From Streptomyces puniciscabiei (GTDB taxonomy: Bacteria; Actinomycetota; Actinomycetes; Streptomycetales; Streptomycetaceae), in assembly GCF_006715785.1 (NCBI RefSeq), contig NZ_VFNX01000001.1:124001-188000 (forward strand): a stretch of DNA of 64,000 nt, in the 5' to 3' direction. Shown in pieces: positions 23,743 to 47,437 of this stretch (position 1 is the stretch's first letter; each line of letters opens with the position of its first letter). A program made the translations under genes and the position numbers. The notes under the pieces were generated by a model. The model saw only the letters and a list, made by a program, of their open reading frames with translations. It had not been told where the DNA came from and ran no database searches.

Positions 23743-23766
23743 TTGCGCATTTGCGCAATGCGGCAA
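23743..23766. promoter_or_regulatory. Palindromic operator candidate, site 1 (perfect match)
   Basis: Fits TTGC-N4-TTGCGCAA-N4-GCAA exactly, with spacers GCAT and TGCG. It is the only copy outside the 31-47 kb island. No convincing gene adjoins it; the nearest clear gene is the synthetase 570 bp downstream. Confidence 0.55.
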
Positions 23767-24192
23767 GCTAAGCTTGTGCCGCGGACTCAAGCCGCGCGCC
23801 TGTCGGATGAGCGCCGCAGGGAGCCGAGGCGGGCTGCAGGCTCCCGAATCGGCGGCAGAAGTATCCCGCCGCCCTGCCTGGCCGGGGGGCGCAGGAACGC
23901 AGGAACACTGAAGACATGAGCAGAGGGCGGGGCATGATCGGGCCGAACGCGGCCAGGAATCCCGACGTGATGCGGCTGGTCGTCACCGAAGGGCACCGGC
24001 TGTGCGGCCACAGCGTCCACCACGACACGGCGATGGACCGCAAACCGGCCTCCTACCAGCACAGCGGGGTCGTCGGCGCGGAGCGGATCATCGAATGCCC
24101 GGGGTACGGACGATCGTCGACAACCCGTTCGACTTCCCGGTGCGGTGAGATGGTCTACCGGCGGCAGGGCACGGCGGGGTGAATTTTGGTAT

Positions 24193-24251
24193 TTGATTCA
24201 CCAATTTCCTCCCATGGGCAGGTTGTGAATCAATTGCACCGAGTTGGTGAA
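24193..24251. promoter_or_regulatory. Nested inverted repeats in the AT-rich region upstream of the synthetase
   Basis: Two overlapping inverted pairs: TTGATTCAC (24193-24201) with GTGAATCAA (24225-24233), and TTCACCAA (24197-24204) with TTGGTGAA (24244-24251). The region is markedly AT-rich for this genome and ends 80 bp before the start codon, so a promoter with an operator is likely. The binding protein is unknown. Confidence 0.5.
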
Positions 24252-24331
24252 CGCGTCCTGTGACGAAGGGCGTCTGACAGGCCGTAAAGGGCCTACCGGC
24301 CCGTCGAACATGGAAATCCAAAGGCGCGACC

Positions 24332-27300
24332 TTGACCTCGACCGCACTCGATGCCTCACACCCTTTCTCGGAAGTCCCGACGAACCGGGCCCTGTTCCGC
24401 TCCGGGGCAGCCGCGCCACCCCGCACCCTCGTCGACGTCCTGGAGGCGACCGCCGCGCTGCACCCGCACGCACCCGCGCTGGACGCAGGCGCCGAGGTGC
24501 TGTCCTACCGGGAGCTGTGCACCGAGGCCCGCGCCCGCGCGCGGCGGCTCACCGAGCGGGGCATCGGCCCCGGCGACCGGGTGGGCGTACGAGTGCCATC
24601 GGGCACCGCGGAGTTGTACCTGTCGATCCTCGCGGTCCTGCACTGCGGTGCGGCCTACGTCCCGGTCGACGCCGACGACCCCGAGGAGCGCGCCGCGACC
24701 GTGTTCAGCGAGGCCGGCGTGTGTCACGTCCTCGGGCCGCACCCGCAACCCGCCGAGCTGGTACCGCCGTCCGGAGCGGCCATGGGCTCCACACCGGCAC
24801 CCGCGGACGACGCCTGGATCATCTTCACGTCCGGCTCGACCGGCGCGCCCAAGGGCGTGGCCGTCACCCACCGCTCCGCCGCGGCCTTCGTCGACGCGGA
24901 GGCCGGGCTGTTCCTGCGCGACCGGCCCCTCGGCCCGGGCGACCGCGTCCTGGCCGGCCTTTCGGTCGCATTCGACGCCTCCTGCGAGGAGATGTGGCTC
25001 GCTTGGTGCTCCGGCGCCTGCCTGGTGCCGGCCGAACGGTCCCTGGTGCGCGCCGGGCTCGAACTCGGCCCCTGGTTGGACGCCCGCGGCATCACCGCCG
25101 TCTCCACCGTGCCCACGCTCTTGGCGATGTGGCCGGAGGAGGCGCTGCGCCGGGTCCGGTTGCTGATCCTGGGCGGCGAGGCCTGCCCGCCCGGACTCGT
25201 CGAACGGTTCGCCCGCCCCGAGCGGGAAATGTGGAACACCTACGGCCCCACGGAGACCACCGTCGTGGCCTGCGCCGCCCGGCTGGAGCCCGGGCAGCCG
25301 GTGCGCATCGGGCTGCCGCTCGCCGGCTGGGAGTTGGCAGTGGTGGACGAGGCCGGGAATCCCGTCGCCTTCGGCGAGCAGGGCGAACTGGTCATCGCCG
25401 GCGTCGGAACCGCCCGCTACCTCGACCCGGTCAAGGACGCGGAACGCTTCCGGCCGAGCCCGGCGCTGGGCCCGCCGCGCGCCTATCGCTCGGGCGACCT
25501 GGTGCGCGCCGACGCCGAGGGACTGGTGTTCCTCGGTCGCGCCGACGACCAGGTCAAGCTCGGCGGACGCCGTGTCGAACTCGGCGAGATCGACACGGCC
25601 CTGCTCGCCCTGCCCGGGGTGCGCGGCGCGGCGGCGGCCGTACAGGCCACCGCGGCCGGCGCCCAGGTGCTGGTCGGCTACATCGTCGCGCAGGAGACCG
25701 CCGACGGCCGCTCGGCCTTCGACGCCGACAAGGCCAGGGCGCTGCTGGGCGAGCGGCTCCCCGCACCGCTGGTGCCTGTGCTGGCCGAGGTGGCGGACCT
25801 GCCCACGCGGGCGTCCGGAAAGGTGGACCGCAAGGCGCTGCCCTGGCCGGTGCAGCTGGCCGGTGCCGGGCACGGTGGCGAGGCGGCCCACCGGTTGCAC
25901 GGGACCGCCGCCCGGCTGGCGGACGTATGGGAGGAGTTGCTGGGCCTGCGGCCCGGCCCGGGCAGCGACTTCGTCGAGCTGGGCGGCACCAGCCTGACCG
26001 CCGCCCGGATGGCCTCGATGCTGCGCCGGGACTACCCGGGCCTTTCGGTCGCCGACCTCTACCGGCATCCGGTCCTGCAGAGCATGGCCGACCATCTCGA
26101 CTCCCTGACCGGCACCGCAGCGGAGGTGCGCCCCGCCCGGCCCGTGCCCCGACGGACCGCCGTGGTGCAGTTCCTCGTCTCCCTGGCCGGTTACGGCGTC
26201 ACCGGATTGCGGGGCCTGGTCGGGCTGGCCGCGGCGGACGACGTCATCGGCTGGATCGCGCCGCACCGGTGGGCGCCGCACACCTCGTGGTGGCTGGTCG
26301 TGGCCGGGTGGGTGCTGCTGTTCAGCGCGCCCGCGCGCTGCCTGCTCGGGGCGGCCCTCGCCCGCGCACTGGCCGGCTCGATCACTCCGGGCGCCCATCC
26401 GCGCGGCGGCGCCGTCCACCTGCGCCTGTGGAGCGCGGAGCGTGCGGTCGTGGCGTTCGGCGTACCGTCCCTGCTCGGCACCCCCTGGGCAGCGCTGTAC
26501 GCCCGGACCCTCGGCTGCCGCACCGGGCGGGACATATGGCTGCACGCCATGCCCCCGGTGACGGGCCTGGCCGAGCTGGGCGACGGGTGCAGTGTCGAAC
26601 CGGAGGCGGACATCGCAGGCTGGTGGCTCGACGGCGACAGGCTGCACGTCGGCAGGGTCGTCGTCGGCGCGGACGCCCGGGTGGGCCACCGCAGCACCCT
26701 GCTGCCGGGCGCTGTCCTCGGCCATGGTGCGGAACTCGCTGCCGGCGGCTGCCTGGGCGGCCGTATCCCCGACGGCCAGGTATGGACCGGCTCCCCCGCC
26801 CGGCCGGCTGCACCCACCGAATGCCTCGCCGAGCCGAACTGGCCCGCCCCGCCGACGGACCGCCGGCGCCGCTGGCACCTCGCCTACGCGCTGTCGCTCG
26901 CCCTGCTGCCACTGCTGTCGTTGCTGGCCGCCGCCCCGGCGCTCGCCGTCACCTGGCTGCTGGTGCGCGGTACGGCCACGCTGTCCGGGGCGACCTGGCG
27001 GCTGCTCGCGGCGGCACCCCTGTTCGCCGTGCTGACCACCGTGTGCGGCATGCTCATCACCGCGCTCACCGTGCGCCTGCTGAGCCGCGGGATCGCGCCC
27101 GGCCTGCACCGCGCCGACGGGGGCGTGGCCTGGCGGGCGTGGCTGGTGACTCTGCTGCTCGACGGCGCTCGGAGCAGCCTGTTCCCGCTCTACGCGAGCC
27201 TCGCCACACCCGCCTGGCTGCGCCTCCTCGGCGCCCGGGTCGGCCGCGGCGCCGAGATCTCGACCGTGCTGCCGCTGCCGTCGCTGCTCCGGGTCGAGGA

Positions 27301-28291
27301 CGGGGCGTTCCTCGCCGACGACACGCTCGTGGCCCCCTTCGAACTGCGTGGCGGATGGATGCGGTTGGGGGCCGTGCGGATCGGCAGGCGGGCCTTCGTC
27401 GGCAACTCCGGCATTGTTGGCCCCGGCCGTGAGGTGGCCGACCACGCCCTGGTTGGCGTGCTGTCCGACGCACCGGCGCACGCCGAGCCGCACTCGTCGT
27501 GGATCGGCCGGCCCGCGATGCCGCTGCCCCGCGTGGCCGGGATCGCCGACGCGGCGCGGACGTTCGCCCCGCCCAGGCGGCTGGTGGCGGCCCGCGCGGC
27601 CGTCGAGGCGTGCCGCGTGCTGCCGGTGATCCTCGGCACGCTGCTGGCCGAGGGCCTGCTACTGGCCCAGCAGAGGGCCCTGGACGTGGGCGGCTTGTCC
27701 CTGGCGGCACTCGCGGGCGTCCCGCTGCTGCTGGCCGCGTCCCTGGTGGCCTGCCTGACCACGACCGCCGCCAAGTGGCTGCTCGTGGGCCGGTTCCGTC
27801 CGGTGGAGCGGCCCCTGTGGTCGTCGTTCGTGTGGCGCAACGAGTTGTTCGACACGTTCGTGGAGGTGCTGGCCGTGCCGTGGGGCATCGCCGCGCACCT
27901 GGGCACGCCTGTGGTGAACTGGTGGCTGCGCAGCCTCGGCGCGCGCATCGGACGCGGGGTGTGGTGCGACACGTACTGGCTGCCGGAGTCAGATCTGGTG
28001 AGCATCGGGGACGGCGCCACCGTCAACCGTGGCTGTGTGCTGCAGACCCACCTCTTCCACGACCGGATCATGCGGATGGACAGCGTGCGCCTGGCTGCCG
28101 GCGCCTCCTTGGGCCCGCACAGCATCGCCCTGCCCGGCACCGCGATCGGCGCCGGTACGTCCATCGCCTCGGCGTCCCTGGTGATGCGCGGGGAGACGGT
28201 GCCCGACGGCACCCGTTGGGCCGGCAACCCCATCGCCGGCATCCCCGCGGCCCGCCCCGCCGCCCGGCTCACCGAAGGGGAAACGGCATGA
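24332..28291 (+). CDS. pls: Epsilon-poly-L-lysine synthetase-type NRPS (Pls family)
   Basis: 1319 residues, the length of known Pls enzymes. It makes an isopeptide-linked cationic homopolymer at the membrane. An adenylation domain (about 20-510) has IIFTSGSTGAPKG, NTYGPTETT, YRSGDLVR and the catalytic lysine motif SGKVDRKALP. A carrier domain has Ser554 in GGTSLTAARM. The remainder alternates about six transmembrane helices with three left-handed beta-helix/acyltransferase-like soluble domains (DGCSVEPEADIAGWW, STVLPLPSLLRVEDGAFLADD, NRGCVLQTHLFHDRIM), the unique Pls tail that links residues without condensation domains. TTG at 24332 matches the expected N-terminus and has AAAGG upstream. The substrate (lysine, ornithine or diaminobutyrate) is not decided by eye. 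The next gene overlaps (ATGA). Confidence 0.92.
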   Translation: MTSTALDASHPFSEVPTNRALFRSGAAAPPRTLVDVLEATAALHPHAPALDAGAEVLSYRELCTEARARARRLTERGIGPGDRVGVRVPSGTAELYLSILAVLHCGAAYVPVDADDPEERAATVFSEAGVCHVLGPHPQPAELVPPSGAAMGSTPAPADDAWIIFTSGSTGAPKGVAVTHRSAAAFVDAEAGLFLRDRPLGPGDRVLAGLSVAFDASCEEMWLAWCSGACLVPAERSLVRAGLELGPWLDARGITAVSTVPTLLAMWPEEALRRVRLLILGGEACPPGLVERFARPEREMWNTYGPTETTVVACAARLEPGQPVRIGLPLAGWELAVVDEAGNPVAFGEQGELVIAGVGTARYLDPVKDAERFRPSPALGPPRAYRSGDLVRADAEGLVFLGRADDQVKLGGRRVELGEIDTALLALPGVRGAAAAVQATAAGAQVLVGYIVAQETADGRSAFDADKARALLGERLPAPLVPVLAEVADLPTRASGKVDRKALPWPVQLAGAGHGGEAAHRLHGTAARLADVWEELLGLRPGPGSDFVELGGTSLTAARMASMLRRDYPGLSVADLYRHPVLQSMADHLDSLTGTAAEVRPARPVPRRTAVVQFLVSLAGYGVTGLRGLVGLAAADDVIGWIAPHRWAPHTSWWLVVAGWVLLFSAPARCLLGAALARALAGSITPGAHPRGGAVHLRLWSAERAVVAFGVPSLLGTPWAALYARTLGCRTGRDIWLHAMPPVTGLAELGDGCSVEPEADIAGWWLDGDRLHVGRVVVGADARVGHRSTLLPGAVLGHGAELAAGGCLGGRIPDGQVWTGSPARPAAPTECLAEPNWPAPPTDRRRRWHLAYALSLALLPLLSLLAAAPALAVTWLLVRGTATLSGATWRLLAAAPLFAVLTTVCGMLITALTVRLLSRGIAPGLHRADGGVAWRAWLVTLLLDGARSSLFPLYASLATPAWLRLLGARVGRGAEISTVLPLPSLLRVEDGAFLADDTLVAPFELRGGWMRLGAVRIGRRAFVGNSGIVGPGREVADHALVGVLSDAPAHAEPHSSWIGRPAMPLPRVAGIADAARTFAPPRRLVAARAAVEACRVLPVILGTLLAEGLLLAQQRALDVGGLSLAALAGVPLLLAASLVACLTTTAAKWLLVGRFRPVERPLWSSFVWRNELFDTFVEVLAVPWGIAAHLGTPVVNWWLRSLGARIGRGVWCDTYWLPESDLVSIGDGATVNRGCVLQTHLFHDRIMRMDSVRLAAGASLGPHSIALPGTAIGAGTSIASASLVMRGETVPDGTRWAGNPIAGIPAARPAARLTEGETA

Positions 28292-30199: not shown

Positions 30200-31393
30200 T
30201 CACGGCCTCGTCTGCTGCACCCGGATCGACTGCAGCAGGCCGACCGCCACCCACACTGCGAACATCGAGGAACCGCCGTAGGAGACGAACGGCAGGGGAA
30301 TTCCCGCCACCGGCATGATGCCGAGCGCCATGCCGATGTTCTCGAAGGACTGGAAGGAGAACCAGGCGACGATGCCGGCGGCGATGATCGTGCCGTACAA
30401 CTCGGTCGTCTCCCGGGCGATGCGACAGGCGCGCCACAGGATCACTCCGATCAGGGAGATGATCAGGATCCCGCCCACGAAGCCCAGTTCCTCCCCGGCG
30501 ACGGTGAACACGAAGTCGGTCTGCTGCTCCGGGACGAACTGACCGGTGGTCTGCGCGCCGTGGAAGAGGCCCTCGCCCGTCAGACCGCCGGAACCGATGG
30601 CGATGCGGGCCTGGTTGGTGTTGTAACCGACTCCGGACGGGTCCAGGCTCGGGTCGGCGAAGGCGGCGAAGCGGTTGATCTGGTACTGGTCCAGGAGATG
30701 CAGCTGCCACACGGCGACGGCGCCGAGGACACCGATGCCGAGCAGACCGAAGACCCAGCGGTTGGAGGCGCCGGATGCGAGCAGCACGCCCAGGATCGTG
30801 ACGGTCATGACCATCGTCGAGCCGAGGTCCGGCATCATCATCACGACCATGATCGGCACGGCGGCCAGCCCCAGCGCCTGGATCACTGTGCGGCCGTCGG
30901 GGTACTTCCTGTCACCCGCGTCGACCCGGGCCGCGAGGAGCAGCGCCATGCCCAGGATGATGGTGACCTTCACGAATTCCGAGGGCTGCAGTGAGAATCC
31001 GCCGCCCAGCACGATCCAGTTGCGGTTGCCGTTGATGGTGGCACCGAGCGGGGTGAGCACCAGCAGCACCCCGAGCACTGAAATCCCGTAGAGGATGGGC
31101 ACCGCGTTGCGCAGGGCGCGGTGCCCCAGCCACATCGTGCCGATCATCAGGACGCACCCGATGCCGAGGTTCATCAGGTGCCGGACGAGGAAGTAGTGCG
31201 GGTCGCCCTGGTTGATCGCGGTGCGGTTGCGAGTCGCGGAGTACACCAGCAGCGAGCCGATGAACGACAGGGCGAGGGCGGCCAGCAGTATCGGCCAGTC
31301 CAGCCGACGGATGCTGGAGTCGCGCGCGAAAAGCCGCGTCCAGGCGGGGCGCTCGGGGCCATAGCCCGAGACGGTGAAGCTGCTCCCGGTCAT
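30200..31393 (-). CDS. SEDS peptidoglycan polymerase, RodA/FtsW family
   Basis: 397 residues with about ten transmembrane helices. SEDS signatures: RRLDWPILLAALALSFIGSLLVYSAT at the start, NGNRNWIVLGGGFSLQPSEFVK, a conserved extracellular acidic loop around QTDFVFTVAGEELGFVG, and the end GIPLPFVSYGGSSM. These enzymes polymerise lipid II glycan strands at the membrane, normally with a class B PBP, but no PBP gene is nearby. A palindromic operator candidate lies about 180 bp upstream (31570-31593). Before the IS110 insertion it would have lain directly downstream of the LCP gene, in the same direction. A second SEDS gene is at 47498-48925. Confidence 0.92.
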   Translation of the reverse strand: MTGSSFTVSGYGPERPAWTRLFARDSSIRRLDWPILLAALALSFIGSLLVYSATRNRTAINQGDPHYFLVRHLMNLGIGCVLMIGTMWLGHRALRNAVPILYGISVLGVLLVLTPLGATINGNRNWIVLGGGFSLQPSEFVKVTIILGMALLLAARVDAGDRKYPDGRTVIQALGLAAVPIMVVMMMPDLGSTMVMTVTILGVLLASGASNRWVFGLLGIGVLGAVAVWQLHLLDQYQINRFAAFADPSLDPSGVGYNTNQARIAIGSGGLTGEGLFHGAQTTGQFVPEQQTDFVFTVAGEELGFVGGILIISLIGVILWRACRIARETTELYGTIIAAGIVAWFSFQSFENIGMALGIMPVAGIPLPFVSYGGSSMFAVWVAVGLLQSIRVQQTRP

Positions 31394-31569: not shown

Positions 31570-31593
31570 CTGCTTGATTGCGCAAAGCTGCAA
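31570..31593. promoter_or_regulatory. Palindromic operator candidate, site 2 (upstream of SEDS gene)
   Basis: CTGC-TTGA-TTGCGCAA-AGCT-GCAA: one mismatch from the 24-base consensus. It lies about 177 bp upstream of the SEDS start on the minus strand. Confidence 0.6.
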
Positions 31594-31774: not shown

Positions 31775-33070
31775 CATTAGGAATTGCGGCACTGATCGCT
31801 CAGTAGGGACTCGACAGCGAGGTCGTCTGTGGTACCTGCACGAACACGACCTGTGGAGAAGCGAGTGACAGCGATCTGGGCCGGTATCGACGCCGGGAAG
31901 ACGCATCACCACTGCGTGGTGATCGACAACGCGGGCAAGCGGCTGCTGTCCCGGCGCGTCGCCAACGACGAGACCGAACTGCTCAAGCTCATCGCGGACG
32001 TTCTCGACTGGGTGACGAGGCAGTGTGGGGCATCGACCTGGCCGACGGCGGGGCCGCCCTGGTGATAGCGGTCCTGCTCAACCACGGTCAGCAGCTGCTC
32101 TACATTCCCGGACGGGCGGTCAACCGGGCCTCCGAGGGCTACCGGGGTGACGGCAAGACCGATGCCAAGGACGCAGCGGTCATCGCCGACCAGGCCCGCA
32201 TCCGGCGCGACCTCACGCCCTTGCGTCCCGGCGACGAGCTGGTGTCCGAGTTGAAGGTCCTCACCCGGCACCGCCGCGACCTCAGCGACGACCGCACCCG
32301 GACCATCAACCGACTCCGCGGCCACCTCACCGAGATCTTCCCCGGCCTGGAGCGCGAACTCGATCTGGGCAACGTCGGCCCCCTGGTGCTGCTGACCGGC
32401 TACCAGACCCCGGCCGCCATCCGCCGCACCGGCCGGCGGCGTCTGGCCACCTGGCTGCGCAACCGCAAGGTCCGCAGCGCGGACGAGCTCGCCGCGAAGT
32501 CCGTCCAGGCCGCCGAAGGACAGCACACTGCTGTCCCCGGTGAGGACATGACCGCCCACGTGGTTCACTCCCTGGCCAGGGAGGTGATGGCCCTCAACGA
32601 GAAGATCGCAGAGACCGACAAGCTCATCGAGGGCCGGTTTCGCCGCCACCGCAACGCGGAGGTGATCACGAGCATGCCCGGCATCGGTGTCCTGCTGGGC
32701 GCAGAGTTCCTGGCCGCCACCGGCGGAGATATGGGCGCCTTCGCCAGCGCGGACCGGCTGGCCTCCTTCGCCGGTGTCTCCCCGGTGCCCCGTGACTCCG
32801 GGAAGGTGAGCGGCAACCTGCACCGTCCCACCCGCTACAGCCGGCGTCTTCAACGCGTCTTCTACACCTCCGCGTTGATCAACATCCGCTGCTGCAACGA
32901 GTCCCGCCGCTTCTACGATCGCAAGCGTGCCGAAGGCAAACGACACAGCCAGGCCGTCATGGCACTCGCGCGCCGCAGGGTCAACGTTCTGTGGGCCCTT
33001 CTTCGTGACGGACGGTGCTACGGCCCCATACCCGCCGTCACGTCGGCCGCTTGACATCTCCATTAGGAAT
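31775..33070 (+). mobile_element. IS110-family insertion sequence
   Basis: An approximately 1.29-kb element carrying one IS110-type transposase. It is bounded by the identical 10-mer CATTAGGAAT at 31775-31784 and 33061-33070, which could be the recombination-site repeat or a target remnant. The right copy overlaps the TAA stop of the LCP gene, so the insertion preserved that coding sequence. It separates the LCP gene from the SEDS gene downstream. The transposase is frameshifted, so the element is probably immobile. Confidence 0.8.
31865..33054 (+). pseudogene. IS110-family transposase, frameshifted
   Basis: Begins VTAIWAGIDAGKTHHHCVVID, the RuvC-like N-terminus of IS110 transposases with the first catalytic Asp. 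GTG 31865 has GGAG upstream. Near 32015-32025 the frame is lost by a small deletion (DWVT then a shift) and resumes as VWGIDLADGGAAL, followed by GKTDAKDAAVIADQAR. The C-terminal Tnp_20 part is complete (SMPGIGVLLGAEFLAATGG, LASFAGVSPVPRDSG, FYDRKRAEGKRHSQA). Total about 395 codons, normal length. One frameshift appears to be the only lesion. Confidence 0.85.
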
Positions 33071-34775
33071 CGGAGTCGGGTGTGCTGCGCGCCGCCGCGT
33101 ACGCCTGGGGCGGTGTCATGGAGATGCCGTTGAGGCTGACCGTCTTGTAGGGGCTGACCTTGGCGCAGGTCTTGGCCTGGTCGGCGGTGGAGGCGTGGGC
33201 GCCTCCGACGGCGGCCTTGGTGTCGGCCGGCGCCGGGGAGGAGCTGCCGCCCGGGAAGCCGGTGCCGCTGGGCCAGTCGCTGCCGATGACCAGGGTCAGG
33301 CCGGTGCCGGTGCCCTGCTTCAGATGCGAGGAGGGCAGACCGAGCGCCTTGGCGACCGTCGTCGTCTCCTCCTTCTGGCCGGTGCCGTAGGTGAGGGTGG
33401 TGGTGGCCGCCGGGCTCGGCGCGTTGGCCGTGGTCGTCGCCGAGTTGAAGCCCTGGTCGGTCAGGGCGGTCGCGATGTCCGAGGCGCGGCCGGTGACCGC
33501 GGTGCCGTTCTCGACGGTGACGGCGATCTGCGACGCGGGGACCGCCGGGGCGGTGGGCTTCGCGGTCGGCGAGGCCGCCGCGGACTTGTCGCCGGAGCCG
33601 GTGGTCAGGGACTGGTCGTTGGCGATGGTGGAGAACAGGGACTTCGCGCCCGGGCCCACGACGAGCCGTTCCTTGTTGTTCGGGTCGGGGGCCGTCTGCA
33701 TCGTCGTGAAGGTCATCCGCTTGGTCGGCACCTTGTTCACGTCCGCCGCGAGCGAGATCAGCTTGCTCACACTGCCCAGGCCGTCGTCCACGGTCAGCGC
33801 CTTGGTGGCGGCGTCGGCCAGGCCATAGACCGCGGTGGGGTCGGTGAGCGTCCCCGTGCTCTTGAACTTGCGGATCAGCGAGCTGAGGAAGAAGTGCTGG
33901 GTCGTCGTACGGCCGAGGTCGCTGCCGTCGCCGAAGCCGTGCCGGGAGCGGACGAACTCCAGCGCGGCCTGACCCTTGAGCGTGTGGTCGCCCTTGGACA
34001 GCTTCAGGTGCGAATAGGTGTCGTACACGTCGTCGGTGACACAGACGGAAACACCACCGACCGCGTCGGACATCTTCACGACGCCGGCGAAGTCGAGCTC
34101 GACGAAGTGGTCGACCGGGATGCCGGTGAGCTGATGGACCGTGGCCACCTGGCAGGCGGGACCGTACTGAAGCGCGCTGTTGATCTGGCCGTAGTAACCG
34201 TTCGTGGACTGATGGCTCTGGCTGTCCGCGCAGGCGGGCACCTGGGTCATGGTGTCGCGGGGGATGCTCATCACCGTCGCGTTGGAGCGGTCGGCGGCTA
34301 TGTGCACCACCATCTCCACGTCCGCGTTGCTGCCGGTCTGCACACCGGTCCTGGCGCAGCCGCCGCCGAGCTTGCAGTCCTCGACGCTGGTTCGGCCGTC
34401 CGAGCCCATGACCAGGATGTTGATCGGGGTACGGCCGAAGGCGTCGGCCTTCTCGGTGCCGCCCTTGCCGTCGAGCGAGACGCTGTTGATGTTGCCGTTC
34501 AGGTGCTCGTAGAACCACCAGCCCGCACCGGCCGTGACCAGGATCAGTACGGACAGGGTGATAGCGACGATCTTGAGCGCCCGTCGGGCGCGCCCGGCCG
34601 GATGTGCACGACGCCGCGACCGGGCAGCGCCCCGTGACCGGGAGGTGGCCCGGGCCGCGGCACGGCCGCCCGGTGGGCGCCTGCCCTCCGCCTCGTACGT
34701 ACGCTGACCGGGCACCCGGGTAGTGGTGCGGCCGCGCGTGGCCTGGCCGTTCGGGCCGTCCCACGGGTCGCTCAT
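33063..34775 (-). CDS. LytR-CpsA-Psr (LCP) family protein with LytR_C domain
   Basis: 570 residues. An Arg-rich cytoplasmic tail (about 1-65), one transmembrane helix (ALKIVAITLSVLILVTAGAG), then the LCP domain: NILVMGSDGR, MSIPRDTMTQVP, INSALQYGP, IPVDHFVELDF and FVRSRHGFGDGSDLGRTTTQ, including the Arg/Asp residues that bind the polyprenyl pyrophosphate. A C-terminal LytR_C domain (IAVTVENGTAVTGRASDIATAL) follows a Pro/Thr linker. Such proteins attach teichoic-acid-like or other glycopolymers to peptidoglycan outside the membrane. The start at 34775 is preferred over 34787 because GGGAG lies 5 bases before it. A perfect operator-like palindrome lies 105 bp upstream. Confidence 0.92.
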   Translation of the reverse strand: MSDPWDGPNGQATRGRTTTRVPGQRTYEAEGRRPPGGRAAARATSRSRGAARSRRRAHPAGRARRALKIVAITLSVLILVTAGAGWWFYEHLNGNINSVSLDGKGGTEKADAFGRTPINILVMGSDGRTSVEDCKLGGGCARTGVQTGSNADVEMVVHIAADRSNATVMSIPRDTMTQVPACADSQSHQSTNGYYGQINSALQYGPACQVATVHQLTGIPVDHFVELDFAGVVKMSDAVGGVSVCVTDDVYDTYSHLKLSKGDHTLKGQAALEFVRSRHGFGDGSDLGRTTTQHFFLSSLIRKFKSTGTLTDPTAVYGLADAATKALTVDDGLGSVSKLISLAADVNKVPTKRMTFTTMQTAPDPNNKERLVVGPGAKSLFSTIANDQSLTTGSGDKSAAASPTAKPTAPAVPASQIAVTVENGTAVTGRASDIATALTDQGFNSATTTANAPSPAATTTLTYGTGQKEETTTVAKALGLPSSHLKQGTGTGLTLVIGSDWPSGTGFPGGSSSPAPADTKAAVGGAHASTADQAKTCAKVSPYKTVSLNGISMTPPQAYAAARSTPDSDS

Positions 34776-34879
34776 CTTCACTCCCATGAACGGTCGGGCT
34801 CGTCAGGCCGGGCCATCAAGGGTACGGCCAGGCATGCGCGGCTGGTTCGTGACAGGCGAGGGGTGAGCCCCCACCTGGA

Positions 34880-34903
34880 TTGCATGGTTGCGCAATCTAG
34901 CAA
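34880..34903. promoter_or_regulatory. Palindromic operator candidate, site 3 (perfect match, upstream of LCP gene)
   Basis: TTGC-ATGG-TTGCGCAA-TCTA-GCAA, an exact consensus match, 105 bp upstream of the LCP start. The eroded mgtA copy ends right at this site, so a deletion joined the ATPase remnant to the LCP promoter without removing the palindrome. Confidence 0.65.
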
Positions 34904-36361: not shown

Positions 36362-36391
36362 ACGCCCACCCAGTGTAGGCGCCGGGCGCAA

Positions 36392-37832: not shown

Positions 37833-38615
37833 CTACCGCATGTGCGGACGTGTGGGGCCGGTGAAGCCCGGACTGCCGAAGTCGGGGCTTGAGCAATCCG
37901 GGGCGATGGCGCCGGGGCGACGGGCGGACAGCGAGTCGTCATCCGGATCGTCACTGTCGGCGCCTGCCCCGCCGGCGGCTGCCTCGCGAGCGGAACGGAC
38001 GGCTTCCTCTGCCATGTGCGCCCGCTCCAGGAGGCCGAGGAGGAACGGCACCATGCCGCGTTCCAGCAGCGCAGCCTGCCACACATCCCACGCCTGACGC
38101 ACGCGCGGATCTCTGTCCCCGTGGTCCGCGTGACCCGCCGACGACCGGTTGCGCGCCGCGGCGACCAACAGCCATATGAGATCGACGGCCCCGGATCCGA
38201 CGGCCACGACGGCGGCGACCGCACCTGTGGTGACCAGGTCATCGCCGATCTGCCGGGCCTGGTCCAGGGCACGCAGGCCGTACCCGAGCGCCAGGAACAC
38301 GGCTCCTGCCACGGCCGAAAGGCTCGGCACGAACACGGCCAGCACCGGCAGGATCCCACCTGCCGCACGTGAGGCAGCGCCTTCGTCGCGCCTGGCGGAC
38401 GCTTCCTTCAGCTCAAGGTAGTCCCGGTACTCGGCTCCCGCTGTGGCCGTGATCGCTTTTCGTGCCGCCACCGCACGGGCACGTAGATCTTCGCGGGTGG
38501 GCCTTCCCGCATGCCGGCGCAACGCCTGGCTCAATTCCGGGGAGCGCAGGGCTTGGTCCAGGAGCCGCTCGAAGACGGCATCGCCGTTTGCCGGCAAACG
38601 GTCGGGCGTGGACAT
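37833..38615 (-). CDS. Hypothetical membrane protein
   Basis: 260 residues from ATG 38615, chosen because GGGAG lies 6 bases upstream. An N-terminal helical cytoplasmic part (FERLLDQALRSPELSQALRR; AAGAEYRDYLELKEASARRD), two or three hydrophobic segments (GILPVLAVFVPSLSAVAGAV; VAAVVAVGSGAVDLIWLLV), then a helical region (AWDVWQAALLERGMVPFL) and a disordered Asp/Ser/Pro tail. No family was recognised. An operator-like palindrome lies about 90 bp upstream. Probably expressed with the envelope and metal island. Confidence 0.65.
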   Translation of the reverse strand: MSTPDRLPANGDAVFERLLDQALRSPELSQALRRHAGRPTREDLRARAVAARKAITATAGAEYRDYLELKEASARRDEGAASRAAGGILPVLAVFVPSLSAVAGAVFLALGYGLRALDQARQIGDDLVTTGAVAAVVAVGSGAVDLIWLLVAAARNRSSAGHADHGDRDPRVRQAWDVWQAALLERGMVPFLLGLLERAHMAEEAVRSAREAAAGGAGADSDDPDDDSLSARRPGAIAPDCSSPDFGSPGFTGPTRPHMR

Positions 38616-38705
38616 GTATGGCTCCCGCTGCAAGTAAGGGTCCCGGAGATGGCAGGCGCACCCGAAGGGAGGTGCCGCACCGTCTCGCGGTGGACATCGT
38701 CATGG

Positions 38706-38729
38706 TTCTCTAATTGCGCAATCGTGAAA
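38706..38729. promoter_or_regulatory. Palindromic operator candidate, site 4 (divergent region)
   Basis: TTCT-CTAA-TTGCGCAA-TCGT-GAAA: perfect core, outer half-sites degenerate. It lies between the minus-strand membrane protein (start 38615) and the plus-strand Nramp pseudogene (from about 38754). Confidence 0.5.
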
Positions 38730-38753
38730 CCTTAGTCAAGCACGGAGAACGGC

Positions 38754-39975
38754 TTGCCGAAGAAGGACCACCGGAGCGGAGGCGTCCGGACGGGCCGCCG
38801 CCGGAGCGACCCGCCGAAGCCGCCGCTCGGAAAGCCGCCGACCGGCCCGCGCGGCCCGGCGCCCTGTTCGACGAGGCTCACCTCGGCGAGCTCCAGCGCG
38901 CCTTCGGCCGCGTCCCCCCGAACACGCCGAGGAACCGCCCGGGTTCAAGGCCCCGGCTGCTGACACTGCCGGCCGTCGTCGGGCCCGGCATCGTCGTGAT
39001 GGTCGGTGACAACGACGCGGGCGGCGTGGCCACCTACGCGCAGCCAGGCCAGAACGACGGCTACTCCCTGCTGTGGGTCCTGCTCCTGCTCATCCTCGTA
39101 CTGATCGTCGCCCAGGAGATGGTCGTACGACTGGCGCGGTCACCGGCGTCGGCCAAGCCCGCCTGATCACCGAGCGGTTCGGCCGGTTCTGGGGCTGGTT
39201 CAGCGCCGGTGACCTCTTCCTGCTGAACTTCCTCACCATCGTGACCGAGTTCATCGGCGTCTCCCTGGCTGCGGAACATCTCGGCGGCCCGCCGTGTGTC
39301 GTCGTCCCGGTGGCCGCCGTCGTTCTGGTCGCCATGACTGCCGGCGGTTCCTTCCGCCGCTGGGAACGCGCCATGTTCGCCTTCATCGGCGCCGGCCTGC
39401 TTCTGATCCCGCTGACCTTGATGTCCCGGCCGCGGTGGGGCGACGCGGACCACGCCGTCGTGGTGCCCGGCGTCCAGGGCGGCGTCAGCAGCGAGGCCAT
39501 CCTGCTGATCACCGCGATCGTCGCCACGACCGCCGCACCGTGGCAACGGCTCTTCCAGCAGTCCAACGTCGTCGACAAACGCATCCCCCGTTATGTTCTG
39601 GGGCGGCCGTCGTCACGCTGGCCACCAGCTACGTCTTCGGAGACGTCTTCAACCTGCGCCACTCCCTGCACCACAGCTTCGGCGAGGCCAAGCGGTTCTA
39701 CGGCTCCTACAGCCTGCTGGTCCTGCTCCTGGTGTGCAACGACACCGAAGTGCTCGGCCCCTGGGTCAACCCGCGCAGCCGAACGTGCTCGCCACCGTCA
39801 TCATCGCCGTTCTGCTGATGCTCTCCGGCACGCTGACGGCGACCAGTCTCTTCCCGACGGTGGACGTCACCCGGCTCACGATCTGGCTGGCCATCGCACT
39901 GGTCACGAGCCTGATCGCGGCCGGTGTCGCGCTTCCGCGCCGCCCGGCGCCGCGCGCCGGCACGGCCGAGGCCCG
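38754..39975 (+). pseudogene. Nramp-family divalent metal transporter, multiply frameshifted
   Basis: Pieces of an Nramp/MntH protein appear in all three frames. They include LFDEAHLGELQRAFGRVPPNTP, LTLPAVVGPGIVVMVGDNDAGGVATYA (with the metal-binding DNDAG), and after a shift TGVGQARLITERFGRFWGWF and LNFLTIVTEFIGVSLAAE. WQRLFQQSNVVDKRI comes next, then another break with internal loss, then FYGSYSLLVLLLVCNDTEVLGPWVN and finally TIWLAIALVTSLIAAGVALPRR. At least three frame changes and one internal deletion. It once encoded an approximately 450-residue Mn2+/Fe2+ importer. Confidence 0.88.
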
Positions 39976-40650: not shown

Positions 40651-41382
40651 TCAGGCCAGCACCCGCGGGCGTTCCCGTTCGGACTCCTCGTCGTCCACGT
40701 GCCAGTGCAGGTCGCTCACGCCCGGCTCCAGGGACAACCGGGAGATGACCTGCTCCAGTGCGGCGGCGACATCGCCGTTGATCATGACCGCGGCACGCAG
40801 GCCGGCCGTCTCGCCCTCCCGGCGCGCACGCAGCCCGGTAGGGGCGAGTCCGGAGGCGGTCAGGGTCTGCAGCAGCAGGGCGCGCAGGTGGGGCTCGGCG
40901 CTGCGCTCGCACACCAGGTGGACTGTGGCGCGGACAGTGGCATCAGGGTCCGTACCGGAAGCCGGCGCTCGGTCCAGCAGCCGCCCGGCCGGCCGCAGCA
41001 CAAGGTGGACGGCCAGGACCACCACGGTGCCGAGGACGGCCAGGCTCAGCTTGCCGGAGGCGGCCAGGACCCCGACGGCCGCCGAGCACCACAGGGTGGC
41101 GGCGGTGTTCAGGCCGCGCACTCCGGCCCCGTCGCGCAGGATCACGCCACCGCCCAGAAATCCGATGCCGGACACCACGTAGGAGGCGACCCGGGTGGGG
41201 CTGCCCATATCGCCGACGGCCTCGCTGTACAGCACGAACAGGGTGGCGCCGGTGGCGACCAGGGCGTTGGTGCGCAGCCCGGCCATCCGGGCCCGCCACT
41301 GCCGCTCGACGCCGATCAGCGCGCCGCAGGCCACCCCGGTGCCGAGTCGGGTCAGGAATTCGACGGTGGTCAGTGCGTGCAC
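40651..41382 (-). CDS. mgtC: MgtC/SapB family membrane protein
   Basis: 243 residues. The N-terminal MgtC domain has four to five transmembrane helices with family motifs (CGALIGVERQWRARMAGLRTN; GIGFLGGGVILRDGAGVRGLNTAATLWCSAAVG). A soluble ACT-like C-terminal half (about 145-243) follows. MgtC proteins support growth at low Mg2+ and modulate ATP synthase and membrane potential; they are not Mg2+ pumps. The GTG start at 41382 has an almost ideal ribosome site (AAAGGAGGTG, 4 bases upstream). Neighbouring mgtA-type and Nramp genes fit a divalent-metal theme. No operator copy adjoins it directly, but site 5 lies upstream of the same-strand gene series. Confidence 0.93.
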   Translation of the reverse strand: MHALTTVEFLTRLGTGVACGALIGVERQWRARMAGLRTNALVATGATLFVLYSEAVGDMGSPTRVASYVVSGIGFLGGGVILRDGAGVRGLNTAATLWCSAAVGVLAASGKLSLAVLGTVVVLAVHLVLRPAGRLLDRAPASGTDPDATVRATVHLVCERSAEPHLRALLLQTLTASGLAPTGLRARREGETAGLRAAVMINGDVAAALEQVISRLSLEPGVSDLHWHVDDEESERERPRVLA

Positions 41383-41479: not shown

Positions 41480-41848
41480 TCAGGCGAGCGGCTGGAGGAA
41501 TTCCAGGCGGTTGCCGACGGGGTCGGTACTGTAGAAGCGGCGGTGGCCGGGCAGGTTGTCGTCCCACACGACCGGCGCGCCGTGTGCGGCGAGGCGGTCG
41601 GAGAGGGCGTCGATGTCGGTCACCCGCAGCCCGGGGTGGGCCTTTTGCGCGGGCCGGAAGGGGTCTTCGATGCCCAGGTGGAGCTGCACGCTGCCGCCAG
41701 GGGTGGCGAACCAGCAGCCACCGCGGGCGGCGAGCACCGGTGGCTTGGGGATCTCGGTCATCCCGAGGGCGCCGGTGTAGAAGGCGCGCAGCGTCTCCTC
41801 ACTGGCGGGCGGGGCGGCGAGCTGGACGTGGTCGAGAGCGGCGAGCAT
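41480..41848 (-). CDS. Glyoxalase/bleomycin-resistance (VOC) family protein
   Basis: 122 residues, standard single-chain VOC length with two beta-alpha-beta-beta-beta modules: MLAALDHVQLAAPPASEE and FYTGALGMTEIPKP in the first, GLRVTDIDALSDRLAAHGAP, FYSTDPVGNRLEFLQPLA in the second. His7 and Glu near the end are the usual metal ligands. Substrate unknown. ATG 41848 has AAAGG 8 bases upstream. It lies 97 bp upstream of mgtC on the same strand, so the two may be cotranscribed. Confidence 0.88.
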   Translation of the reverse strand: MLAALDHVQLAAPPASEETLRAFYTGALGMTEIPKPPVLAARGGCWFATPGGSVQLHLGIEDPFRPAQKAHPGLRVTDIDALSDRLAAHGAPVVWDDNLPGHRRFYSTDPVGNRLEFLQPLA

Positions 41849-42094
41849 AGCGAAGGCCTTTCTGTCTTCAGCCTGGCCGACAGCCCGGTGCGGGGTGCGG
41901 TGTCGTCGAGCCTGATGGTGCCGAGCGCACCCTGGATGTCGCCGACGTGCGCGTCGTCCAGGACCCCAAAAGGAGGAGATAGGGGGCACGCGAAAGCCAT
42001 CCTCCCCGCGCGAGCGCGCAGGACGGCAGCCCGTCACGGCGCACGGCCGTGCGGGGGCAGCAGACGCGGACGGGAATCCGCGCAGGGAAGGTGG

Positions 42095-42239: not shown

Positions 42240-42262
42240 CCGGCCCACGCGACGGTGGCCGG
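42240..42262 (-). promoter_or_regulatory. Conserved leader hairpin before the 25-aa ORF
   Basis: On the minus strand CCGGCCAC pairs with GTGGGCCGG around a short loop. The same hairpin occurs on the plus strand at 43321-43343 before the related short ORF, followed in both by TGCCGAGTCG. The conservation of both sides of the stem between the copies suggests RNA structure. No known riboswitch was recognised. Confidence 0.35.
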
Positions 42263-42464
42263 CACACCCCAACTCGTCAGAGCTTTGGCACTCCACGGCG
42301 TAATCCCCTTGCCGGGGAAGCCACTTGGCCTCACCCCTTGGGCCGGGGAGAGGTGTCCTGACCCTGGGCGTCTCTCGACGTCGTGGGGTCAGTGGCCTGT
42401 GTCCGTGAAGACGCCTCACCGAACGAGGTGCCCTTTTCAAACCTCAAAGAGTGTAGCCCAACGC

Positions 42465-42488
42465 TTGCATGCTTGCGCAAGTCATTTG
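42465..42488. promoter_or_regulatory. Palindromic operator candidate, site 5
   Basis: TTGC-ATGC-TTGCGCAA-GTCA then TTTG: perfect left half and core, right half-site poor. It lies upstream of the minus-strand series short ORF (42172), VOC gene, mgtC, and just downstream of the small gene ending at 42505. Confidence 0.5.
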
Positions 42489-43601: not shown

Positions 43602-43672
43602 CGACGTCGCCTCGGCAAGAAGCCACCCGGTCCTGGATCACCGCTCACGCGAGCCACGGCATCGAGGGTGGG

Positions 43673-45196
43673 TCAGTTGACGCACGGCACACCGCCTGCC
43701 TCCACAGGCGGGCCGTAGTCGTCCGCTGTTGCCGTGCTCGACGCGGAAGCGGTCGGCGTCCGGGTCGGAGCTGCCTGACTGGGATGCGTGTAGTCCTCGC
43801 CGAGGGTGACGACGACGTGGCCCGCGGACACGGCGGGACTGGAAGCGGCGGTGCCGGCGTGGAGCCGGCCGGCGATCTGCTGAGCCGCCTGCTGTGCCCC
43901 TGCGCCGTAGCGGACGGTGGTCGCAGGCTGCGTGGTGGTGTTGCCCGTCGTACCGGCCGTGTAGCCGAGTTCGACCAGAGTGGAGAGCGCCTTCGAGGCG
44001 AGGCCCCGACCGCCGTTGCCGTTGATGACATCCACGGTGGCGGGTGCGGCCGCAGTGGTGTCGGAAGCCGCGGGAGACGGGGCACCGGCCGCTCCGAAGG
44101 CTTGCTGCACGATCGACTTGATCTTCTCCGGATCCACGAGGTTGACGTCCTCGCGGTTGCGGATCCCGAAGCCCTCGATGGGCAGGGTGCGGAACACGAC
44201 GTTGCCGCCGGTGAGGTCCGGGGCCTGCTGTGCGAAATCGAGCACGTTCCAGCTGCTGTCCAGGACGACATCCTTCTTCACGACGTCGAACAGTCCTTGA
44301 AGCTTGGACGGGCTGCCCCAGACACCCTCGGTCTTGAGCTGATGCGTGACTGTGGAGATGAAGGCCTGCTGCCGGCGCGTACGGTCCAGGTCACCGGCGT
44401 CCAGCCCGTGCCGCTGTCGTACGAAGGCCAGTGCCTGACGGGCGTTCAGCTGCTGCAGGCCGGCCGGGAAGTCGGCACCCGAATAACGGTCCTTGACCGG
44501 GTGCTTGAGGCACACCGTGACGGGCTGCAGAACCTTGGCGATGTCGTAGAAGCCGAGGAGGTTGACCTCGGCGAAGTGGTCGATGGGCACGCCGGTGAAC
44601 TGCTGCACTGTCGCCAGCGTCGCCTCCCGGCCGGCCTCACGGCTCTTCGCTTCCAGATCCGCGCCCTTGACGCCCTGGGCGGCGTACTTGTCGTGGGCGG
44701 TGGTGTACGCGTTGGCGTACGCCTCCTTGATCTTGAAGTGGCCCTGTATCGAGCCGTCTCCGTTCAGCGTCTGCACGTAGTCGTCGCGCGGGATGGAGAA
44801 CGCCTGCACCTTGCCGCCGTTCGCGGGGATGTGCATGAGGATCAGGGTGTTGGTGTTGTAGTAACCGATGTCGCTCGACCCGGCGTGCAACTCGGTCTGC
44901 ACGAACTGCCGTGGCAGGTCGTTGCCGTTCATGTCCTTGCGCGAGTCGAGACCTATCAGCAGCAAGTTGACCGCGTTGTCCAGGTGTCGGGCCGCCTTGC
45001 CGCGGATCGCGTCGAGCGCATCAGAGGTGGTGAGGCCGTGCGTCAGGGACCGGTAGGCGTACCAGGTCGCACCGCAGCCGAGCAGCACAGCCGCCGAAAC
45101 CGTCCATGTCGCAACACGCAACACGACAAGCCAGGGCGCCCTGCGTCCGCGTGTGACGGCGGCCGAGTACGGACGGTGTCGCATGCTCTCAGGCAC
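43673..45196 (-). CDS. LytR-CpsA-Psr (LCP) family protein with LytR_C domain, second copy
   Basis: 507 residues. One transmembrane helix (VATWTVSAAVLLGCGATWY), an LCP domain (NLLLIGLDSRKD; AFSIPRDDYVQTL; IPIDHFAEV-like GVPIDHFAEVNL; LAFVRQRHGLDAGDLDRTRRQ), and LytR_C (VDVINGNGGRGLASKALSTL). Glycopolymer transfer to peptidoglycan on the outer membrane face is the family role. It differs clearly in sequence from the LCP at 33063, so it is a paralogue rather than a recent duplicate. GTG 45196 has GGAGG close upstream and overlaps the stop of the membrane gene before it by 8 bp. Confidence 0.92.
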   Translation of the reverse strand: MPESMRHRPYSAAVTRGRRAPWLVVLRVATWTVSAAVLLGCGATWYAYRSLTHGLTTSDALDAIRGKAARHLDNAVNLLLIGLDSRKDMNGNDLPRQFVQTELHAGSSDIGYYNTNTLILMHIPANGGKVQAFSIPRDDYVQTLNGDGSIQGHFKIKEAYANAYTTAHDKYAAQGVKGADLEAKSREAGREATLATVQQFTGVPIDHFAEVNLLGFYDIAKVLQPVTVCLKHPVKDRYSGADFPAGLQQLNARQALAFVRQRHGLDAGDLDRTRRQQAFISTVTHQLKTEGVWGSPSKLQGLFDVVKKDVVLDSSWNVLDFAQQAPDLTGGNVVFRTLPIEGFGIRNREDVNLVDPEKIKSIVQQAFGAAGAPSPAASDTTAAAPATVDVINGNGGRGLASKALSTLVELGYTAGTTGNTTTQPATTVRYGAGAQQAAQQIAGRLHAGTAASSPAVSAGHVVVTLGEDYTHPSQAAPTRTPTASASSTATADDYGPPVEAGGVPCVN

Positions 45197-45749
45197 GATC
45201 CCTCCTGTTCATTCCGTACCGGAGCACGGCTACCGCCAGCGCCACGACGACCACCGCGCACTCCGCCGCGGCCATCGCCGGGAACACCGCCACGGCCCAC
45301 CGCACCAGCCGCGTGGCCAGCGGACCGTGCGACGTCAGCACCGTCCCCGCCGTGACAACGGCCACAGCCAGGGCCGGCAGCGGTGCCACGAATCCCAGAG
45401 CGCGGCGACGAACCGCCGCCAGGGCCGCGAGCAGGGCTCCCGCCGCCGCTCCCACCACCACACCCCAGCCGGGCTCCCGGCCGACCAGGGCGTCCACCCC
45501 GTCTCCCAGAAGCAACGGTCCCAGCAGCATCGCTGCGATGCCCCCTGCCCGGGGCCGGCGCACAGGAGACGCGCCGCCCTCGCCCCGCTGCGAGCGTGGC
45601 GCACGGGGTGTGCCTTCGGACGGCGTCCGCTCTCCGGCCCGGCCCTGAGGGACCACCCGACTGTGCGTCACGGAGCTGTGCTGCCCCTGCGCGCCGATGG
45701 CACTGTTGACGCGTTCCCGTTGATGGCGCATGCGCTCGCTCTCGCTCAT
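45189..45749 (-). CDS. Membrane protein, DUF6542-like, coupled to LCP gene
   Basis: 186 residues from ATG 45749; an upstream in-frame start at 45842 would overlap the operator, so the later one is preferred. A charged N-terminal third (SPVRRPRAGG) is followed by about four transmembrane helices (IAAMLLGPLLLGDGVDALVG; GWGVVVGAAAGALLAALAAV; FVAPLPALAVAVVTAGTVL; ECAVVVVALAVAVLRYGMNR). Such DUF6542-type proteins commonly sit next to LCP genes in Streptomyces. An 8-bp overlap with the LCP gene suggests they work together. Confidence 0.75.
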   Translation of the reverse strand: MSESERMRHQRERVNSAIGAQGQHSSVTHSRVVPQGRAGERTPSEGTPRAPRSQRGEGGASPVRRPRAGGIAAMLLGPLLLGDGVDALVGREPGWGVVVGAAAGALLAALAAVRRRALGFVAPLPALAVAVVTAGTVLTSHGPLATRLVRWAVAVFPAMAAAECAVVVVALAVAVLRYGMNRRDRA

Positions 45750-45826
45750 CTCGACGCGGGCAACACGGCTGAATCCGGAGTGTTGCCCCGACTGCCACCA
45801 GTGAGACGAAAAAGGAGCTCTGATGG

Positions 45827-45850
45827 TTGCACAGTCGCGCAAGTAGGCAA
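45827..45850. promoter_or_regulatory. Palindromic operator candidate, site 6 (upstream of DUF6542-LCP operon)
   Basis: TTGC-ACAG-TCGCGCAA-GTAG-GCAA: one mismatch in the core, both half-sites perfect. It is about 80 bp upstream of the operon start at 45749. Confidence 0.62.
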
Positions 45851-46075
45851 GTATTCGAGCTGGGTGTCCTCGGGTTCACGCCCCTCCACCGTCTGGCCGG
45901 CGTGCGGCTATGGTCGCCGTTCCTCCCGCAGCGACCCCCAGGGTCCGGCACATGCGGGCACGACAGGCCCTGGCGCCCATACCGAGCCGGTCGGCGATCC
46001 CGCGATCACGGATGTAGGCCACGCGATGATGGATCAGTGCCGCTCGAGGCGTGCTGTGATCCCTTCTGTCCGGGG

Positions 46076-46395: not shown

Positions 46396-46469
46396 CGGAG
46401 GCCTTCACCCGTCACCCGATTCAGACGATGTCAGAGCACAAACTCGACCAGCATGCCTGGGCAGTACAG

Positions 46470-47375
46470 CTAACCCAGCTCCACCGCCAGCACCCCGGCC
46501 TGCCGGGAATCGGGTGTGCTGTGCGTCCAGCCTCGGTCCGAGGCGGCGCTGCTCCAGCGCCGGCCGTCGAATGTCACGGATGTGGCGTGCAGTGCGGTGG
46601 CGTGGCAGAGCAGCCACAGGGCGAGGGACCAGCCTGTGGAAGCCTGCTCGGTCGCAATCGGGAAGCTGACGCTGTCGCCGCCGGTCGCGGGCCCGGCGAC
46701 CGGCGCGTCGCCGAACTCCCGCCGCACGGCTGCCGCGACACCGCTGCCGTCACCGGCCTCGCTCACGGCGCCCGCCGCGCTGCTCGCTGTATCGGAGGGA
46801 GCCGGGTCGGCCCCACTCACCGTGCAGTTCAGCGCCGGCCCCTCCCGCCCCGTCAGCACGTCGGCCAGCGTCGCCGCCATGGCCTCATGTGATGCGTAGG
46901 CCTCCGGGTAGCCGCTGTGCTGGACTCGCTGCGCGGCGACGGTGACCGGAAGGCCGAGGTAGTCGGGCACCTTGACCAGCGCGTCGAAGAACTTGCCCGA
47001 CGCGTAGACGGGGTCGCGGATCTGGGCGGGACTGCCCCAGCCCTGGGACGGGCGCTGCTGGAACAGGCCGAGGGAGTCGCGGTCCCCGTACGTCAAGTTG
47101 TGGAGTTTGGACTCCTGGATCGCGGTCGCCAGGGCGATGGTGACAGCGCGTTCCGGCAGGCCGTGCGCGTGGGCCACGGCCGCGATGGTCGCGGCGTGGG
47201 ACGCCTGGTCCAGATCGAGTGTGACCGTCGTACCGTCCGTGCCCTGCGCCGTGCACTCGTCGGGAGTCGCCGAGCGGATGAACCGGACGGCGAGATAGCT
47301 CACGAGCGCCAGAACCACGCTCACCCCGATCAGCACCGCCCACGCCTTGCGGCGCCCCGTCCTGCGTGCCGCCAC
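46470..47375 (-). CDS. Membrane-anchored lysozyme-like lytic transglycosylase
   Basis: 301 residues. One N-terminal membrane helix (AWAVLIGVSVVLALVSYLAV), then a lysozyme-fold domain: HAHGLPERAVTIALATAIQESKL (catalytic Glu in AIQES), NLTYGDRDSLGLFQQRPSQGWG, FFDALVKVPDYLGLPVTVAAQ, VQHSGYPEAYASHE. The C-terminal part is a small domain with VSFPIATEQASTGWSLALWL. Streptomyces genomes often label such proteins heavy-metal transporter, but the visible fold is a peptidoglycan hydrolase. GTG 47375 has GGAGGG 5-6 bases upstream. Divergent from the SEDS gene across an operator-like palindrome. Confidence 0.82.
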   Translation of the reverse strand: MAARRTGRRKAWAVLIGVSVVLALVSYLAVRFIRSATPDECTAQGTDGTTVTLDLDQASHAATIAAVAHAHGLPERAVTIALATAIQESKLHNLTYGDRDSLGLFQQRPSQGWGSPAQIRDPVYASGKFFDALVKVPDYLGLPVTVAAQRVQHSGYPEAYASHEAMAATLADVLTGREGPALNCTVSGADPAPSDTASSAAGAVSEAGDGSGVAAAVRREFGDAPVAGPATGGDSVSFPIATEQASTGWSLALWLLCHATALHATSVTFDGRRWSSAASDRGWTHSTPDSRQAGVLAVELG

Positions 47376-47413
47376 GCCGACCCTCCTCTTACCTGGCCTC
47401 GACTACAGTTCAG

Positions 47414-47437
47414 TTGCGTTGTTGCGCAACCATATAA
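47414..47437. promoter_or_regulatory. Palindromic operator candidate, site 7 (divergent promoter)
   Basis: TTGC-GTTG-TTGCGCAA-CCAT then ATAA: left half and core perfect, right half-site poor. It sits 39 bp from the transglycosylase start and 61 bp from the SEDS start, so one site could control both envelope genes. Confidence 0.62.

Follow-up and report, generated by a model that had tools for sequence, protein, structure and literature searches.

Regulators of the ArsR family usually control themselves through an operator in their own promoter and mostly repress by occupying promoters; the classical metal ligands of ArsR/SmtB sensors are alpha-3N cysteines or the alpha-5 set D/H/H/E. In enterobacteria, the Mg2+/acid/cationic-peptide regulon of PhoP/PhoQ unites mgtA, mgtC, envelope remodelling and polycations. 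Here we describe a 24-bp palindrome that is repeated within a 64,000-nucleotide stretch of the genome of Streptomyces puniciscabiei (assembly GCF_006715785.1, contig NZ_VFNX01000001.1, positions 124,001 to 188,000; hereafter "the window"), and we consider it likely that its copies are the operators of one clade of ArsR-family proteins controlling an envelope regulon. The system resembles that of the metalloregulators SmtB, CzrA, NmtR and CmtR in its winged-helix ArsR domain and in having a palindromic operator in promoters. It differs from them in that the clade has no conserved cysteine or alpha-5 histidine/glutamate ligands, the proposed targets are genes for the wall and membrane and not for efflux pumps, and there is little sign of autoregulation. 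The meeting of mgtA, mgtC, envelope genes and polycations recalls the PhoP/PhoQ regulon by analogy only: the mapped genes include no two-component system (no search was aimed at PhoP/PhoQ), and the mgtA and mgtC of the window are neighbours without a full site of their own.

The third system with which the locus can be compared is the control of envelope and acid responses in Streptomyces albulus by SigE/CseBC and MprAB. In the passages of that work drawn on here, lower pH jointly raises the polylysine synthetase gene pls, the LytR-type gene MAGL008579 and the TerD gene MAGL008582, while the cation ATPase MAGL005340 goes up and the ArsR-family gene MAGL002769 goes down; the same passages differ from our reading in ascribing lytR to SigE and make no mention of an ArsR operator (PMC7317143). 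The MAGL numbering is compatible with the block of LytR-CpsA-Psr (LCP), TatA and TerD genes described below, and acid as the signal is a lead only, because the MAGL genes could not be mapped. Searches of the open-access PMC literature listed no paper whose title or opening lines of the abstract dealt with this operator or with an ArsR regulon of such make-up, and counts of the terms asked for were zero in PMC12016549, PMC9617413, PMC11122054, PMC11768054 and PMC10157215.

The palindrome in the window and in the genome

The palindrome has the core TTGCGCAA flanked by the arms TTGY/RCAA, with a weak extension to about 32 bp, and no strand is assigned to its copies. Perfect 24-bp copies lie at 23743..23766 (29.5 bits), upstream of pls (start 24332), and at 34880..34903 (37.5 bits), about 105 bp upstream of the gene for LCP1. 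Single mismatches are found at 31570..31593 (25.5 bits), upstream of SEDS1, and at 45827..45850 (26.5 bits), upstream of the DUF6542-LCP2 pair, where the mismatch falls within the core (TCGCGCAA). The copy at 47414..47437 (25.7 bits), between the divergent transglycosylase-like and SEDS2 genes, has two mismatches, and that at 38706..38729 (27.4 bits), which lies upstream of a membrane protein gene and overlaps the start of an Nramp frame, has three. At 42465..42488 (below 6 bits), 31 bp upstream of an M-box riboswitch, the core and left arm are retained, all four bases of the right arm are wrong, and the copy is at best a half-site. Re-reading confirmed the seven positions that an initial annotation of this DNA had listed, with its two perfect copies and its single mismatches at 31570 and 45827; six of the seven are full sites, the exception being 42465, which keeps the core and one arm.

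At up to three mismatches, the window holds seven matches against 0.09 expected. Since the match at 23735 only overlaps 23743, and 42465 is outside this set, we count six independent sites. The core occurs six times against 0.37 expected, a number equalled in none of 100 shuffles. The repeat is genuine, at a frequency far exceeding chance. Sites outside this genome, 47 distinct ones among 51 rows of a longer list, went into a weight matrix; the window sites formed no part of it, and it was also used to score loci from its own source genomes. It gives the six window sites 25.5-37.5 bits and finds nothing else in the window at 6 bits or above, except for 23735, which overlaps one of them.

The whole genome (9.146 Mb in nine contigs) has six sites with at most two mismatches and the reversed-pattern control none; five of the six fall inside the window. 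At three mismatches, the count is near noise (11 sites versus 7 for the reversed pattern). The sixth site (G000:C2:613613) stands before a paralogue of the window LCP1 gene (84% identity), with a paralogue of window ArsR1 (82% identity) on its other side; a TerD gene about 2 kb away has a weaker, 15.6-bit site 68 bp before it. A further ArsR-MgtA pair of the same genome (L340, G000:C1:801000-819000) has no site of at least 8 bits in its 18-kb stretch.

The ArsR clade and its co-occurrence with the site

We suggest that the regulators are ArsR1 (35957..36391, minus strand) and its paralogues, whose genes often come just before one for an MgtA-type Mg2+ P-type ATPase, and that a dimer would read the core TTGCGCAA and its TTGY/RCAA arms in the promoters of envelope genes. 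The genes so regulated would be those for LCP glycopolymer transferases, small TatA, TerD, SEDS, transglycosylase-like and small membrane proteins. Judging from the sequences, direct binding of ArsR to the palindrome is highly probable. The protein would most likely repress, a mode of action that we regard as probable with less assurance, and would be released upon a signal from the envelope or from acid, low Mg2+ or polycations; stress of these kinds is a possible trigger, about which we lean slightly to doubt. Wall reinforcement would thereby accompany the production of polylysine.

ArsR1 carries an ArsR winged-helix domain above the curated threshold (PF01022, 35.5 bits, cut-off 22; NF033788, 74.2 bits, cut-off 55) and matches SmtB chains over ranges of equal length. 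Its paralogue ArsR2 (53504..53938, minus strand; PF01022), 70% identical to it, adjoins the MgtA gene. An alignment of the clade (45 rows, with ArsR1 counted twice and four short rows dropped) shows little or no variation in SQHL and KL-LAGLV of the recognition helix. No conserved cysteine was found in these rows (Cys reaches 16% at position 67), and, with a constant offset, the positions corresponding to H117 and E120 hold Q/R and A/E/D. The classical ArsR/SmtB metal ligands thus appear to be missing from the clade; a non-classical site is possible.

The evidence that ties the clade to the site is their joint distribution. Among 150 congeneric genomes, our own included, the site (at most one mismatch) is present in 48 and ArsR in 50; both occur in 47, the site only in 1, ArsR only in 3 and neither in 99 (Fisher p 4e-34, uncorrected for relatedness), and the reversed control is found in 4/150. 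The ArsR cut-off, E at most 1e-30, was set after a gap between 4e-31 and 1e-24 appeared, and at most 26 candidates per genome were scored; at a looser 1e-20, ArsR is counted in 65/150 genomes, and none of the 15 added has the site. A set of 42 genomes chosen through a Pls-like gene, at least three of them shared with the 150, divides into 29 with site and ArsR and 13 with neither (reversed control 1/42). In the 29, the number of sites follows the number of ArsR copies (rho 0.66). A class-wide sample of 296 genomes has the site in 8 of its 28 congeners and ArsR in 9; all 8 are among the 9, and three of the 8 were already in the 150-genome set. Four of the five ArsR genomes that lack a close site hold a weaker one (G019, 25.9 bits; G047, 18-20 bits; G417, 15.7 bits; G344, 28.3 bits), and G344, from another family, combines ArsR, MgtA and its 28.3-bit site. 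ArsR is the only DNA-binding family among the gene families mapped around the sites, where not every neighbouring gene was annotated. A frequent arrangement around sites in other genomes is ArsR - MgtA - site - LCP and/or small TatA - TerD, and MgtA directly follows ArsR in 34/55 ArsR matches.

Candidate target promoters and rival explanations

Strong sites avoid coding sequence and prefer promoters. Of 100 distinct sites of at least 24 bits, 82 are near a predicted start (-200 to 300 bp), 13 are intergenic elsewhere and 5 are inside genes; 1194/1760 random control positions are inside genes. Candidate targets were counted as mapped genes starting within -40 to 400 bp of 87 sites of at least 18 bits, taken from the window plus 80 fetched loci, divergent sites being counted twice; the loci were fetched on account of a site, ArsR or pls match, and the gene counts therefore describe a non-random sample. 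They are small TatA (39), the LCP1 type (20), a second LCP type (14), TerD (6), SEDS2 (4), ArsR (4), transglycosylase-like (3) and membrane (2) genes, with one each for SEDS1, Nramp, Pls and a larger TatA-like gene. The distance to the start codon is mostly about 35-120 bp, which fits repression without proving it.

Several of these promoters keep their sites in other species. Between SEDS2 and the transglycosylase-like gene, Streptomyces sp. CoH27 has the same 24-mer as the window, and S. naganishii, S. monashensis and IMTB 2501 have similar ones. The DUF6542-LCP2 site recurs at the same place and with the same core change in IMTB 2501 and in S. monashensis. The membrane-gene operator 38706 differs by two bases from a site of S. 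monashensis (L280 4239), the LCP1 site is kept in the three others compared, one of which is the paralogue in the same genome, and a degenerate relic of 16.6 bits lies upstream of a 91% SEDS1 in L110. In L282 and L296, mgtC follows a SEDS2 gene that bears the site. A site also precedes a LURP-one-like gene in five loci (L054, L289-L291, L295; 80-94% alike), and L054, L289 and L295 also have a related small membrane gene in divergent orientation.

Several observations weigh against an ArsR operator. A site of at least 12 bits is found in 6/55 upstream regions of ArsR genes versus 15/275 controls, which does not support autoregulation, and in 0/35 within 400 bp upstream of MgtA starts. Most pls genes lack the site, only 3/80 named pls-like loci (L123, L139, L140) having one with at most three mismatches. 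One genome (G097) has the site and no ArsR, another (G028) has ArsR and no site in the DNA fetched, and 15/268 genomes of other genera match at no more than one mismatch versus 3 for the reversed control. The sites of G097 and of the 15 other-genus genomes, which have no member of the clade at E 1e-30 or better, may be due to chance or to another regulator. The co-occurrence is also partly linkage, because many sites lie within a few kilobases of ArsR.

The scarcity of the site in ArsR promoters and the case of G097 would be expected if the sites were read by another transcription factor, encoded elsewhere, and ArsR genes just travelled with the LCP/TatA locus. Sites with no ArsR nearby are found before SEDS2 (L108, L110), LCP2 (L112, L199) and the LURP-one-like gene (L289-L291, L295). 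Against this explanation, site and ArsR agree in 146/150 and 42/42 genomes, and those sites that have no ArsR within the 12-19 kb fetched come from genomes with ArsR elsewhere; we hold it to be improbable. That site presence tracks ArsR also tells against the motif being a promoter element of an alternative sigma factor, with no regulator needed, an idea suggested by the spacing from start codons and by the TATGAT directly after a few sites (window SEDS1, L108). The long symmetric palindrome, its service to divergent genes and its conservation on both sides do not suit such an element, which we consider very improbable. A fixed -10 box behind the site was tried and is not supported, TANNNT standing at its commonest column in just 7/99 contexts. 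The IS110 gene, the broken MgtA and the Nramp remnant could suggest regional decay, the copies then being left over from a mobile or recombination repeat. This is scarcely credible given that other species carry equal or similar 24-mers at orthologous promoters, with differing flanks, and that coding sequence is avoided (5/100).

The ArsR operator is the reading that we retain. Counts over the genome and the genus, promoter enrichment and orthologous conservation, all proposed as checks by the initial annotation, came out positive (6 versus 0; 48/150; 5/100 inside genes). Its single factor for wall and metal genes survives as to the factor, the promoter preference, the conservation and the wall targets. 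Metal genes as direct targets fare poorly, given the absence of sites before MgtA, an Nramp that is a remnant, and an mgtC with a half-site and an M-box. It was right that neither ArsR promoter of the window holds the site, the upstream maxima being -7.5 and -14.1 bits. It had found no obvious regulator, and from the co-occurrence the ArsR clade can itself be proposed; it had also seen no clear gene at 23743, missing pls downstream (24332), and had overlooked the M-box ahead of mgtC that begins shortly after the 42465 half-site. The regulon is real and has a proposable regulator; the wall half of the earlier idea stands and the metal half is indirect.

Polylysine synthetase, magnesium and the neighbouring genes

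By sequence, window 24332..28291 (plus strand) encodes an epsilon-poly-L-lysine synthetase, with adenylation and carrier domains (PF00501, PF00550), a terminal-domain model above cut-off (TIGR02353, 644 bits, cut-off 423) and a match to PDB 7wew of 793 bits. S. naganishii has a 21.2-bit site about 210 bp upstream of pls. The pls-proximal stretches of the two species align, and the window has about 370 bp more between operator 23743 and the aligned part. Within this extra DNA before the pls promoter is an 88-aa frame (23916-24182, plus strand) with a polysaccharide deacetylase match below cut-off. A site before pls as a general rule was rejected, a site being near pls in 1/80 loci; among L123, L139 and L140, it is close to pls in L139 only. 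The core TTGCGCAA lies within 600 bp upstream of pls in 4/80 loci versus 0.45 expected, and S. albulus, S. rhizoryzae and strain CT34 have it in common, with incomplete arms. The published S. albulus pls promoter holds the core but reaches only 8.7 bits (PMC8117764). From these positions, pls is probably under the operator in S. puniciscabiei and S. naganishii; that it is a live target in the present strain seems to us an evenly balanced proposition.

The ArsR clade also goes with the close Pls type. In the 150 genomes, ArsR is present in 7/7 (own included) with a Pls at least 69% identical over the last 719 residues versus 43/143 others. In the 42 Pls-selected genomes, where relatedness was not corrected for, it is present in 23/24 with a close Pls (at least 67%) versus 6/18 with a more distant one.

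Magnesium enters through the genes around the sites. The MgtA-type ATPase gene (50827..53601, minus; TIGR01524, 705 bits, cut-off 610.75; PDB 8uy7, 591 bits) has no site of its own, and a two-frame remnant of such a gene, 72% identical to it, lies between ArsR1 and LCP1 (34778..35964, minus; PF00122, PF00690). mgtC (40651..41382, minus; PF02308, PF21770) and a glyoxalase/VOC gene (41480..42037, minus; PF00903) share as leader an M-box Mg2+ riboswitch (42261..42434, minus; RF00380, 129.9 bits, gathering 44) that spans model positions 1-169/169. A scan of 26 related loci, some of them without mgtA or mgtC, gave no M-box at gathering score. With no site before mgtA or most arsR genes, Mg2+ is tied to the regulon by neighbourhood and not by a common operator.

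The wall genes next to the operators are SEDS1 (30200..31393, minus; PF01098, the FtsW/RodA family), LCP1 (33063..34787, minus, start near 34775) and LCP2 (43673..45196, minus), both with PF03816 and PF13399, and SEDS2 (47474..48925, plus; PF01098), which is followed by a TatA/B-like gene (48963..49415, plus; PF02416). An IS110-type transposase gene (32023..33054, plus; PF01548, PF02371) separates SEDS1 from LCP1. The DUF6542-like gene preceding LCP2 (45189..45842, minus; PF20177, 21 bits, below the cut-off of 27) is listed as beginning inside site 45827, and its true start is not set. The membrane protein gene (37833..38633, minus) and the transglycosylase-like gene (46470..47375, minus) keep labels from the initial annotation, family searches giving no match; the Nramp remnant (38714..39166, plus; PF01566) covers 37/357 profile positions. 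Farther off, a thiopeptide-type bacteriocin biosynthesis gene (18542-21349, minus; TIGR03891) and the adjoining ABC transporter gene (16761-18545, minus; MsbA-like match below cut-off) are possibly a separate peptide cluster. The window also has a frame with weak likeness to EreB-type erythromycin esterases, far below cut-off (14477-15748, minus), an RHS/YD-repeat protein of 1571 aa (7235-11950, plus) and a urea carboxylase and allophanate hydrolase pair (212-5622, plus).

What emerges is a candidate regulator, operator and target list for an envelope response, the regulator gene being present in 50/150 sampled congeners. If the link holds, the ArsR family would be extended into cell-wall control, and the regulon may be part of the reason why organisms that make polylysine withstand it at low pH. 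A more speculative reading, which we think unlikely, casts an ArsR that lacks a classical metal site as the master regulator of a Gram-positive, PhoPQ-like response to low Mg2+, acid or polycation; in this reading it would jointly control the attachment of wall polymers (LCP), the synthesis of the wall (SEDS), Tat export and TerD, as well as polylysine synthesis in some producers. Were this doubtful reading true, weapon (polylysine) and armour (wall) would be made together.

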